The notes under the pieces were generated by a model. That model saw only the letters and a program-made list of their open reading frames with translations, was not told the origin of the DNA and ran no database searches. From the NCBI GenBank assembly GCA_019347895.1, contig JAHWKM010000007.1:1-55297 (forward strand): 55,297 bases of DNA, given 5' to 3'. The stretch comes from Candidatus Parcubacteria bacterium. GTDB taxonomy: Bacteria; Patescibacteriota; Saccharimonadia; Saccharimonadales; 2-12-FULL-41-12. Both the position numbers and the translations under genes were made by a program. Shown in pieces: positions 11,508 through 15,085 of the stretch (its first letter is position 1; each line of letters opens with the position of its first letter).

Positions 11508-11517
11508 CAACTTTTTT

Positions 11518-11538
11518 TGGTGGGCGAGAAAGGACTTG
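11518..11538 (-). repeat. Detached copy of tRNA-Leu(TAG) 3' tail
   Basis: tggtgggcgagaaaggacttg, identical to 11696-11716 inside the intact tRNA. Confidence 0.9.
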
Positions 11539-11695
11539 GTCACATCCCGCTACCCCGAAACTACATCTTTCAAAACAAGTTTTGAAGAGTAGGTTTCCTT
11601 GCGAACTGCCACCGGCAGTTCTCACCTTCACGGCCCGTGAAGTTTCAAGGCTTGCCTAGCATTGAAAAAGCCTGGCTCCAGCCAGACATTTACAA

Positions 11696-11782
11696 TGGTG
11701 GGCGAGAAAGGACTTGAACCTTCACGGGTTTTACCCCACTAGTTCCTAAGACTAGCGTGTCTACCAATTCCACCACTCGCCC
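11696..11782 (-). tRNA. tRNA-Leu (anticodon TAG), CCA encoded
   Basis: GGGCGAGTGGTGGAATTGGTAGACACGCTAGTCTTAGGAACTAGTGGGGTAAAACCCGTGAAGGTTCAAGTCCTTTCTCGCCCACCA; class II long variable arm. Confidence 0.97.
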
Positions 11783-11804: not shown

Positions 11805-12344
11805 TTAGCTGATTTTACGATAAAAAACCAGCTGAGCGTCGCCGTATTTTTTAGCTTTCAACTTCTCTGCATGCTGCAAGCTTGGTACTTCCAGGTTCCC
11901 GGGCCAATCAAGCACATATAACCCGCCAGGTTTCGTATGCTTAACCAGTTTTTGGATTAGTGATAACTGAAGATTGTCGTATGGCGGTGCGGCCAAAACG
12001 ATATCAAATAAAGTGTCCGGATTATTATCGCTCCAGCCCGAAGCATTGGCCCGGATAGCTTTGACTTCATCCCCCAGCCTGAGCTGTTTGATGCTTTTTT
12101 TTATAGATTCAATCGCACCTTTGTCAATATCGACGGCAGCTGCGTGTTTAGCCCCCCGGCTGACAGCCTCAAAGCTAAGAGCCCCGCTGCCGGCAAAAGC
12201 GTCAAATATAGTCAGACCTTCGATATCTCCCAACGCAGAAAATAAACCGCCCCGCGCCTTTTCGCTCATCGGATGCGTCCGATGTCCTTTTGGTCCTTCA
12301 AAATTCCGTCCGCCCAGCTTCCCAGCAATAATCCTCACCCCCAA
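11805..12344 (-). CDS. rsmD: 16S rRNA (guanine966-N2)-methyltransferase RsmD
   Basis: MGVRIIAGKLGGRNFEGPKGHRTHPMSEKARGGLFSALGDIEGLTIFDAFAGSGALSFEAVSRGA; NPDTLFDIVLAAPPY. Confidence 0.92.
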   Translation of the reverse strand: MGVRIIAGKLGGRNFEGPKGHRTHPMSEKARGGLFSALGDIEGLTIFDAFAGSGALSFEAVSRGAKHAAAVDIDKGAIESIKKSIKQLRLGDEVKAIRANASGWSDNNPDTLFDIVLAAPPYDNLQLSLIQKLVKHTKPGGLYVLDWPGNLEVPSLQHAEKLKAKKYGDAQLVFYRKIS

Positions 12345-12359
12345 ATTATATCACCAACC

Positions 12360-12397
12360 ACTAACACTTTTGCGACGATCGTCTAAAAAGTGTTAGT
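12360..12397. repeat. 38-bp palindrome upstream of the PaaX/Cas2-like gene
   Basis: actaacactttt-gc-gacgatcgtc-ta-aaaagtgttagt; only the two gc/ta pairs are mismatched; ends 9 nt before the ATG. Confidence 0.93.
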
Positions 12398-12406
12398 ATT
12401 TTTAAT

Positions 12407-12910
12407 ATGCGCGAGAAAGACAGGTTAGCGAAAAAATATCGCTCATCCACACGCTATATCTTGTCCGGATTAATTCCTTACACGGAGGCCAATGTTAAGT
12501 TATCGTTTAAACCTTCAGCGTTTTTTAACGATTTAGAAAAACTAGACCGGGTTTACTCTAATAAAAAAGCTTTGCAGAATGCTTATTATCGCTCCATTAA
12601 GAAAGGTTTGGTTGAATTATCCGATGACGGAATACCGAGATTGACGGATAAAGGAAGGCGAAGAATTAGGGAATATGAGCCGAAAAAGATTAAAAACGGA
12701 AAATTGATGGTTGTTTTTGATATACCGGAAGCGCAGAGATTAAACCGCAACCGCTTGAGAACACTCCTAAAAGAATTGGATTTCAAGCAAGTACAAAAAA
12801 GTGTCTGGATATCAAACAACGATTCCCGCGAATATCTAAAATTAGAAATCAAACAAAATAAACTAGAAAATTTCGTAGAAGTATTTGAAGCCCGTTCAAT
12901 AAATATTTAG
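12407..12910 (+). CDS. PaaX-like transcriptional regulator with Cas2-like C-terminal domain
   Basis: N-terminal wHTH-like part (YRSIKKGLVELSDDGIPRLTDKGRRRI) followed by GKLMVVFDIPEAQRLNRNRLRTLLKELDFKQVQKSVWIS, matching the PaaX_M/Cas2-like ferredoxin fold signature. Confidence 0.8.
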   Translation: MREKDRLAKKYRSSTRYILSGLIPYTEANVKLSFKPSAFFNDLEKLDRVYSNKKALQNAYYRSIKKGLVELSDDGIPRLTDKGRRRIREYEPKKIKNGKLMVVFDIPEAQRLNRNRLRTLLKELDFKQVQKSVWISNNDSREYLKLEIKQNKLENFVEVFEARSINI

Positions 12911-12932
12911 TCAAGATAAAACTTAAAATTTT

Positions 12933-12970
12933 ACTAACACTTTTTCGACGATCGGCTAAAAAGTGAGGGT
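12933..12970. repeat. Second copy of the 38-bp palindrome, downstream of the PaaX/Cas2-like gene
   Basis: actaacactttttcgacgatcggctaaaaagtgagggt; 33/38 identical to 12360-12397, same orientation. Confidence 0.93.
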
Positions 12971-13045
12971 AATTTGGGTTGGGTTTATGGTTGTTTGATT
13001 TTTTGGTTTGGATTTTAGGTTTTTGATTAGATTTAGGTTTGGGGT

Positions 13046-15085
13046 TTAGTTTAGGTTTGTTATGGAGCGGTAGTTTGATATTTGGCAGGCTAGATCGGGG
13101 TAGTTTGCCAGCTGTTCTTTTGACTCGATGAAATCTTTGGCGGAATTTCTGGCTGACTCAATTAGCTTTACGTCTGTTAATTTGGCTACGCGCAAATCAA
13201 GCTGGCCGGATTGCATCCGGCCGTAGATAGCTCCGGGACCGCGGATTTCGAGGTCTAATTCCGCGAGCTTAAATCCATCGGTTGTATTTTCCAGAGCCTT
13301 AAGTCGTTTGGAAGGCGCTTTGCTGTCACTCATAACTATGTAGCAGTACGCTTGCTGGCCCCGTCTGCCAACACGGCCGCGCAGTTGGTGTATCTGGGCC
13401 AAACCAAAGCGTTCGGCGCCTTCCACCAGCATAATAGTTGCGTTCGGCACATCTACCCCCACCTCTACGACAGTAGTTGAAACTAATATATTCAGGTTTT
13501 TATGTACGAATTGTTCCATAATCTTCTCTTTTTCATCCGCTTTCATCTTGCCGTGCAGCAAGCCCACTCTGCGGTGCTTGAAAACACTTTTTGCCAAGCC
13601 TTCATAAACCCGCTCGGCCGACAAGGCTTGCAGCATGTCAGATTCAGCGATCAAGGGGCAAACCACGAACATTTGGCTGCCGGCGGCTATTTCTTTATCG
13701 ACCTTGCGATACATCTGCAGACGTGAATTCGGTGAAACAATCTCTGTTTTAACCGGCAGCCTGCCTTTCGGCTTTTCGCTAATAATTGAAATATCCAGCT
13801 CGCCGTAAAGTGTTAGAGCCAGGGTGCGCGGAATTGGAGTAGCAGTCATTGTCAGCACGTGAGGCATCGTGCCTCCAGATTTTTTTTGAAGTTTCTTGCG
13901 CTGTTCCACGCCAAACCGGTGTTGTTCGTCAACTATTACCAAGCTCAGTTTGTGCATGTCGACTTTTTCGGCTATCAGCGCGTGGGTGCCTATTATGAAT
14001 TTGGCTTTGCCGGATTTAATTTGTTTATGGGCCGCTGATTTTTGCGCTGGTTTCATGCTGCCGATAAGCAAAATAGCTTCGTGCTCCTTCCCGATAGATT
14101 TGAGCATGGAATGAAGCGTATCAGCGTGCTGGCGAGCCAAAAGTTCTGTCGGCGCCATAAAAGCCGCTTGATAGCCATGGTCCGCTGCCATGAGCGCCGC
14201 CATAGTAGCCACCACTGTTTTGCCGGAGCCGACGTCGCCTTCAACCAGCCGGTTCATCGGCTCGTCCTTTTGCATGTCCTGGTAAATTTGCCAAACTACT
14301 TTGCGCTGCGAATCAGTAAGCTTAAAAGGGAGACGGGCGACAAATTGTCTTGCCAAATCTTCTTTAAATGGAATCACGTGGGTTTTCTCAGCGCTGGCCT
14401 GCTTTTTATTTATTAAGCTGGCAAGGCTTAAGCCAAAAATTTCTTCAAAACCCAAGCGTTTTTTAGCGGCCTCCATACGGCCCATATTTTTTGGAAAATG
14501 CATCGCCATAATAGCTTCTGATCGGTCAAGCAAATTATTTTCGGCGATAATTTGATCAGGCAATGTTTCTTCTAAATTTTCTATAATATTTCTAGCGCTG
14601 GCTATAATTTTGCGAATAGCGGCAGATTTTAACCCTTTTGTCTCGCGGTAAACCGGCACAATTCGCGCGGCATTAAGCGGAAAATCGCTGGCCAGCTCTA
14701 CGCTTGGATTCATAACCGCAAAACGCTGGTAGCTGAGCTCGAAATTTCCGGAAATAAAATATTCTTGATGGGATTTTAATGATTCAACGCGGTACGGTTG
14801 GTTAAACCAGACCAGGCGTACACTGCCGGACTCATCACTGGCGATGGCTTCGGTTATATGCATCCCGCGCCGGACGTACCGGCCCTTGGCAGAAGTGATC
14901 TTGGCTTTTATGGAAACCTGCCCCGGTTTAAGAGCGGAAATAGGGCTTAAACTAGAAAAATCATCATACCGCCGAGGAAAATAATTAATAAGATCATTAA
15001 CCGTTTCCACGTCAAGAAGTTTAAATTTCTTGGCAATAGTTTCACCGACACCTTTAAGTGAAACGATATTTTTTTCCAGTTCCAT
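13046..15085 (-). CDS. recG: ATP-dependent DNA helicase RecG
   Basis: RLVEGDVGSGKTVVATMAAL, IVDEQHRFGVEQR, LTMTATPIPRTLALTLYGELD, QIHQLRGRVGRRGQQAYCYI. Confidence 0.97.
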   Translation of the reverse strand: MELEKNIVSLKGVGETIAKKFKLLDVETVNDLINYFPRRYDDFSSLSPISALKPGQVSIKAKITSAKGRYVRRGMHITEAIASDESGSVRLVWFNQPYRVESLKSHQEYFISGNFELSYQRFAVMNPSVELASDFPLNAARIVPVYRETKGLKSAAIRKIIASARNIIENLEETLPDQIIAENNLLDRSEAIMAMHFPKNMGRMEAAKKRLGFEEIFGLSLASLINKKQASAEKTHVIPFKEDLARQFVARLPFKLTDSQRKVVWQIYQDMQKDEPMNRLVEGDVGSGKTVVATMAALMAADHGYQAAFMAPTELLARQHADTLHSMLKSIGKEHEAILLIGSMKPAQKSAAHKQIKSGKAKFIIGTHALIAEKVDMHKLSLVIVDEQHRFGVEQRKKLQKKSGGTMPHVLTMTATPIPRTLALTLYGELDISIISEKPKGRLPVKTEIVSPNSRLQMYRKVDKEIAAGSQMFVVCPLIAESDMLQALSAERVYEGLAKSVFKHRRVGLLHGKMKADEKEKIMEQFVHKNLNILVSTTVVEVGVDVPNATIMLVEGAERFGLAQIHQLRGRVGRRGQQAYCYIVMSDSKAPSKRLKALENTTDGFKLAELDLEIRGPGAIYGRMQSGQLDLRVAKLTDVKLIESARNSAKDFIESKEQLANYPDLACQISNYRSITNLN

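Follow-up and report, generated by a model that had tools for sequence, protein, structure and literature searches.

A Cas2-fold protein gene bracketed by matched palindromes in Patescibacteria as a candidate REP-like system

Introduction

Members of the Patescibacteria account for a large share of bacterial diversity and have streamlined genomes, in which families of dispersed repeats are not expected. A small gene lying between two copies of one palindrome in such a genome raises the question of what the palindromes are: operators of the gene, or the ends of a cassette on which the gene product acts. Both readings were put forward in a preliminary description of a locus in a 55,297-nt stretch of DNA from a Candidatus Parcubacteria bacterium (the window hereafter), where the encoded protein was described as joining a winged helix-turn-helix to a Cas2-like fold. 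Many Cas2-fold proteins are RNases or are inactive, and none is known to transpose DNA on its own.

In this paper, we report a computational analysis of this locus, its homologues and its palindromes, in which the REP/RAYT (TnpA-REP) systems, or REPtrons (PMC8266576, PMC3733652), serve as the main comparison. No earlier description of the system was found in the open literature searched, preprints and most subscription papers lying outside it, and within the same scope nothing was found linking PaaX to Cas2-like proteins and palindromes, to the Candidate Phyla Radiation, or to Cas2 and nuclease.

Results

A single-gene cassette between rsmD and recG

The left end of the cassette is a 38-bp near-palindrome (12360..12397, no strand assigned; core ACGATCGT) in which two of the 19 pairs are mismatched, and which ends 9 nt 5' of the ATG (12407) of a plus-strand gene for a 167-aa protein of the PaaX_M/Cas2 family (12407..12910). 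The right end is a second copy (12933..12970, no strand assigned), identical at 33 of the 38 positions and lying 22 nt past the stop codon (12910). All of these features, as given in the preliminary description, were confirmed. The cassette measures about 610 bp, holds a single ORF and is antisense to both neighbours, namely rsmD (11805..12344, minus strand; 16S rRNA methyltransferase family, PF03602) on the left flank of the insertion and recG (13046..15085, minus strand) on the right.

When the two palindromes were scored against each other the pair reached 31 (maximum of 11-12 for shuffled sequences), and the upstream copy is the best gapless palindrome of the whole 55-kb window. As a single strand, the upstream copy folds into a hairpin of -11.1 kcal/mol (z -5.6 against shuffles) and the downstream copy has a z of -3.6, so that both fold better than nearly all shuffles. 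The window holds no further copies of the repeat. A repeat of CRISPR-like length with neither an array nor cas1 had been remarked upon, and this holds at the locus, where rsmD and recG are the only neighbours of the cassette; nor is there an adjacent antitoxin gene, the cassette having one ORF only. A terminator scan returned none at the window palindromes, a promoter scan found no clear sigma-70 promoter inside the upstream palindrome, and a scan against Rfam for known RNA elements returned only a tRNA nearby.

Two other features of the surroundings were observed. The start of the reverse strand of a tRNA gene (11699-11782, minus strand; ggtgggcgagaaaggacttg) is repeated about 180 bp away at 11519, and this arrangement (11517-11782) resembles the scar of an old integration or a tRNA gene duplicated in part. 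Between the right palindrome and the recG stop codon there is a low-complexity stretch, rich in GT and about 75 bp long (12974-13045).

A winged helix joined to a Cas2-like fold

The proposed domain composition of the protein was borne out by profile and structure comparisons. The 167-aa product matched PaaX_M (E 8e-17) and CRISPR_Cas2 (E 9e-7, above the Pfam cut-off), and an AlphaFold model built from a 12-row alignment (mean pLDDT 80) gave E. coli PaaX as the best Foldseek match (E 3e-4), followed by weaker matches to many Cas2 structures and to VapD. Against the full-length PaaX equivalog TIGR02277 the protein scored 12.1 bits, far under the cut-off of 264.6, and against the Cas2 equivalog TIGR01573 it scored 23.9 bits, just under the cut-off of 24.5. 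The HUH Y1 tyrosine transposase profile (PF01797) gave no match, PaaX_M and Cas2 being the only matches, and the protein contains no histidine.

The residues D105, R114, Q130 and S132 are invariant in all 95 palindrome-bracketed homologues. Among 28 other homologues, which include truncated or borderline ones, the catalytic-type aspartate is replaced in five, every one a long form of 241-258 aa; the homologues of this length that were examined are mostly without palindromes. By analogy with Cas2, D105 would be a metal ligand. A phage or plasmid origin was considered and rejected, as searches of IMG/VR with the single protein and with a seven-sequence alignment, and of phage and plasmid collections, gave no relatives, and there was no PHROG match.

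Homologues carry their own palindrome pairs

The gene had been called solitary, which proved mistaken, as its own genome (907 kb, Ca. Saccharibacteria-type) holds six homologous but diverged copies (32-66% identity). Within the order, 39 of 393 genomes have relatives of the protein, and PaaX_M was detected in 90 of the 287 patescibacterial genomes sampled across the phylum, with up to 11 matches per genome. The nearest loci come from Candidatus Saccharibacteria records and remoter ones from Parcubacteria; the protein tree is too poorly resolved to date transfers.

Nearly every close copy is surrounded by a matched palindrome pair of its own. A strict pair test was passed by 58 of 82 distinct homologues, those failing it being mostly long forms or copies cut by contig ends, and only 12 of 735 control genes scored as high, one of which is the Ldh_2 gene discussed below. 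In a second screen of 40 loci, pairs were found around nearly all complete copies of 160-230 aa, with identities of up to 40/40. Bracketing of this gene family in related genomes, which the preliminary description had proposed as a check, is thus the case for most homologues, including remote ones.

About 90 copies are bracketed by their own matched pair close against start and stop. In these 90, the median distance from palindrome centre to start codon is 26.5 nt (12-40 nt in most) and that from stop codon to palindrome centre is 21 nt, with the stop codon falling inside the palindrome in some copies. The palindromes vary in sequence from copy to copy, a CGRYCG-type core being common to most. 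The downstream palindromes are as regular as the upstream ones, which removes the suggestion of a simple operator present only upstream; -10-like hexamers are only modestly commoner upstream (28/90) than downstream (17/90).

One locus departs from this layout. L180 of genome G535 has a pair of Cas2-fold genes that differ in type and face each other, and the palindrome that follows the first gene recurs downstream of the second, which has no matched pair of its own.

Cognate palindromes are dispersed in the genomes that carry the gene

Dispersal in the genome of the window (G000) was scanned in a 378-kb sample, the window type being sought by a whole-genome pattern search as well. Five of the six palindrome types of this genome are dispersed, either as solo copies or, for one type, as a second pair without a Cas2-fold gene. 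Away from the genes in the 378 kb, the C14 type has two solos, the C9 and C20 types have one each, and the C3 type has the additional pair; the whole-genome search for the window type returned two further sites (C22:15305 and C20:67689), and none with the reversed control. The palindromes of this genome have 19 sites at home (378 kb) as against 0-1 in two other genomes, with reversed controls at 0. The palindrome types are genome-specific.

The additional C3-type pair (G000:C16) has 36/36 identical ends; what it surrounds is not a PaaX gene but, on the opposite strand, a gene for an Ldh_2 dehydrogenase of 329 aa. No homologue of this gene was found in the five other genomes of the family, and the best homologue among 100 relatives is 37% identical. 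We read the bracketed dehydrogenase gene as a cargo cassette.

Three further solos of the same genome (L218 10381, L218 15301 and L311 2185; ACTATCAYTTT..TCACGATCGTGA..GTGATAGT) form a separate group. Two of the three agree with the window type at 27-29 of 36-38 positions, and the group may constitute an orphan family or else consist of older relatives of that type.

Dispersal is most extensive in genome G311, where the palindrome occurs at 13 loci besides the gene. The solos are 83-95% identical over a conserved unit of about 46 bp with the edges AAAACTG and CAAAAT and no GTAG or CGTC tag; the flanks are unrelated, and the 15 sites show no shared sequence beyond the unit. The arms vary in matched pairs, and symmetric variant arms define subfamilies. 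Of the 12 solos that could be classified, seven have convergent neighbouring genes and one has divergent ones. This placement is that reported for REPs, which are found mainly between convergent or co-directional genes (PMC3733652), and not that of operators. Simple terminators were rejected for these palindromes, as the sequence after them is rich in A and not in T. In columns 17/36 and 19/34 both sides vary, with a formal covariation test that was only suggestive; covariation was rejected as proof of a hairpin, as shuffles reach the score in 12 of 500 cases and mutation by palindrome correction could give the same result.

In 420 kb of genome G512, three palindrome types were found, each with two or three solos besides the bracketed genes, and no Y1/HUH transposase was matched. 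The same genome holds a 116-aa endonuclease-like gene between two identical 22-bp hairpins (L238 17444-17794; ACCCCCTCTTAGAATAAGAGGG); its product looks like DUF559, and the locus is possibly another palindrome-bracketed single-gene cassette. It also holds a separate four-site palindrome family (G512:C4 near 93923, 118868, 324315 and 324642; GTGTCCAATTC..GAATTGGACAC), two sites of which are 327 bp apart and with which no Cas2-fold gene is associated. In genome G015, a perfect 44-bp solo palindrome (L065 1430-1473) lies between a CBS-domain-like gene and recG and is similar to the pair that flanks the Cas2-fold gene of the same genome (L021).

Empty sites and inheritance

Comparison of the rsmD-recG junction, also proposed at the outset, showed it to be empty in two genomes of the family: recG and rsmD lie on the same strand with no cassette between them, 19 nt apart in G001 (same genus) and 17 nt apart in G002 (same family). 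A third genome of the family, G004, has an 84-nt gap with palindrome-like sequence but without a gene, which may be a scar or a site that is not occupied. None of the other 29 recG loci examined had the gene at this position. In G311 the gene has xthA and an nnrD-like gene as neighbours; G088 lacks it there, and a G311 solo beyond der is absent in G088 and G386. These empty sites are resolved at the level of the gene, no near-identical pair of empty and filled alleles being present among the genomes compared.

Vertical inheritance at this locus with no empty sites had been named as a refuting outcome, and it is contradicted by the empty recG-rsmD junctions above; some copies of the family are, all the same, vertical at a fixed locus. 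Different species share several copies as orthologues at the same place, with intact ORFs kept at some loci, so movement must be infrequent or long past. The copies of one genome have diverged strongly from each other. In the orthologues L170/L174 and L176/L179 the two palindromes of a pair diverge together (for example, 0.92 identity within a copy as against about 0.4 between orthologues), and no such concerted divergence was seen in the orthologues L099/L100. Concerted change of the ends fits a protein that needs to recognise both, and gene conversion is a possible cause too.

Discussion

We consider it probable, at roughly 60%, that the window holds part of a REPtron-like system in which a Cas2-fold protein, and not an HUH transposase, acts on cognate palindromes. 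The bracketing, the cognate dispersal, the matching of types within a genome and the empty sites are supported by the sequences compared, and for binding, cleavage, the strand used and transfer by copying or cutting we infer the following course. The cassette would be one autonomous copy of a minimal element found across the Patescibacteria, consisting of a palindrome, one ORF and the same palindrome. A dimer of the protein would recognise its own palindrome through the winged helix and cut at or beside it with a Cas2-type metal site (D105), and the cut ends would be joined elsewhere, such that a single palindrome, or the content between two (a cargo gene or the Cas2-fold gene), is transferred to intergenic DNA or copied there. 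The gene is probably also repressed by binding at the upstream palindrome, near the start codon. The proposal of a repeat-delimited cassette whose Cas2-fold protein is cognate to the flanking palindromes therewith gains support at the level of sequence, the dispersed solos and the cargo cassette having been added to it. More tentatively, and at somewhat less than even odds in our estimation, the system may represent a new class of transposable element, in which a nuclease of Cas2 fold, guided by its winged helix, is the sole protein and moves or copies its palindrome, its own gene and sometimes cargo from one intergenic site to another across the Patescibacteria.

The readings that compete with this one differ in what the palindromes are taken to be. 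If the protein is a transcription factor like PaaX, it would repress its own gene from the upstream palindrome as operator, the downstream one would be a second operator (with looping) or a terminator, and the solos the operators of a small regulon, with nothing moving. PaaX is indeed a regulator and the closest fold match, the upstream palindrome sits close to the start codon in most copies, and some solos are divergent or upstream of genes, so that the operator pair envisaged in the preliminary description may hold for the upstream palindrome; dispersal is left unexplained by it. The solos are, however, mostly convergent or downstream of genes, those of one genome agree along all 46 bp and have symmetric variant arms that form subfamilies, as expected of copying, the downstream palindromes lack nothing in regularity, a PaaX-free pair brackets the laterally acquired Ldh_2 gene, and the catalytic aspartate is strictly conserved in bracketed forms. 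On this evidence we regard a purely regulatory role as unlikely.

We give still less weight to two explanations in which the spread of the palindromes is owed to something other than the Cas2-fold protein. The palindromes could be REPs mobilised by another enzyme, for instance a Y1/HUH RAYT encoded elsewhere, the Cas2-fold gene being a passenger or regulator. Y1_Tnp genes are present in seven of ten genomes tested, including G311 and the window's own, but the bracketed copies of G512, G415 and G450, and the solos of G512, occur without any Y1_Tnp match, none of these palindromes is present at the two Y1 loci of G000 or at the one of G311, and the palindrome type follows each Cas2-fold gene even where there are several types per genome; mobilisation by such an enzyme is accordingly improbable. 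An equally small chance is allowed to a module that is selfish or protective, for example a nuclease resembling a toxin, in which the palindromes would mark DNA or shield it and the spread would be due to ordinary recombination between direct repeats and not to an activity of the module. In its favour, the protein has nuclease relatives in Cas2 and VapD, host recombination between direct repeats can lead to excision and to solos, and the vertical upkeep of intact ORFs at some loci points to a function under selection. Against this, the cassette has no partner gene or antitoxin, and host recombination leaves the 13 near-identical G311 solos in unrelated flanks unexplained.

The REPtron-like reading can also be placed among known systems. 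As in REP/RAYT systems, extragenic palindromes of 20-50 bp are dispersed, mainly in convergent or co-directional placement, the gene is flanked by its cognate palindrome, repeat types specific to a gene occur within one genome, and there is apparent co-evolution. The present protein differs in combining a winged helix with a Cas2 fold and in lacking an HUH motif; neither a GTAG nor a CGTC tag was seen, the palindromes are nearly gapless with a CGRYCG core, the gene is multicopy, the solos number from a few to about 13 per type as against hundreds, and a cargo cassette was seen. Since there is no HUH enzyme and no GTAG tag, the system is not a member of the REPtrons. Nor is it a CRISPR module, a classical insertion sequence with proven ends or a toxin-antitoxin pair. 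It shares with the PaaX family (E. coli PaaX, PDB 8a39) a winged helix joined to a central Cas2-like domain, but it is much shorter (about 160-200 aa), is without the PaaX C-terminal part and keeps the Cas2-type aspartate. With Cas2 of CRISPR-Cas it has in common the ferredoxin-like domain and the FD(I/V)PE and Q-x-S motifs, and with CRISPR a partly palindromic repeat of similar length that brackets DNA; unlike there, the winged helix is fused, the locus has neither array nor cas1, and the repeat is palindromic over its full length and dispersed. One small gene between hairpin-forming ends, and cargo between two palindromic sites, recall IS200/IS605 elements and integron attC cassettes, but the protein family is another, the near-perfect palindromic ends stand in direct-repeat register and there is no array of the integron integrase type. 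Empty sites in relatives, at gene level, are a likeness to classical insertion sequences.

A REP-like system with a Cas2-fold protein offers a testable link among CRISPR adaptation proteins, transcription factors and mobile DNA. If the proposal is true, a stand-alone relative of Cas2 can mobilise DNA without Cas1, which bears on the origin of the role of Cas2 in integration. Such a system might provide a very small mobilisation tool of about 610 bp, and it would explain many genes that are labelled Cas2 or PaaX in CRISPR-free genomes.
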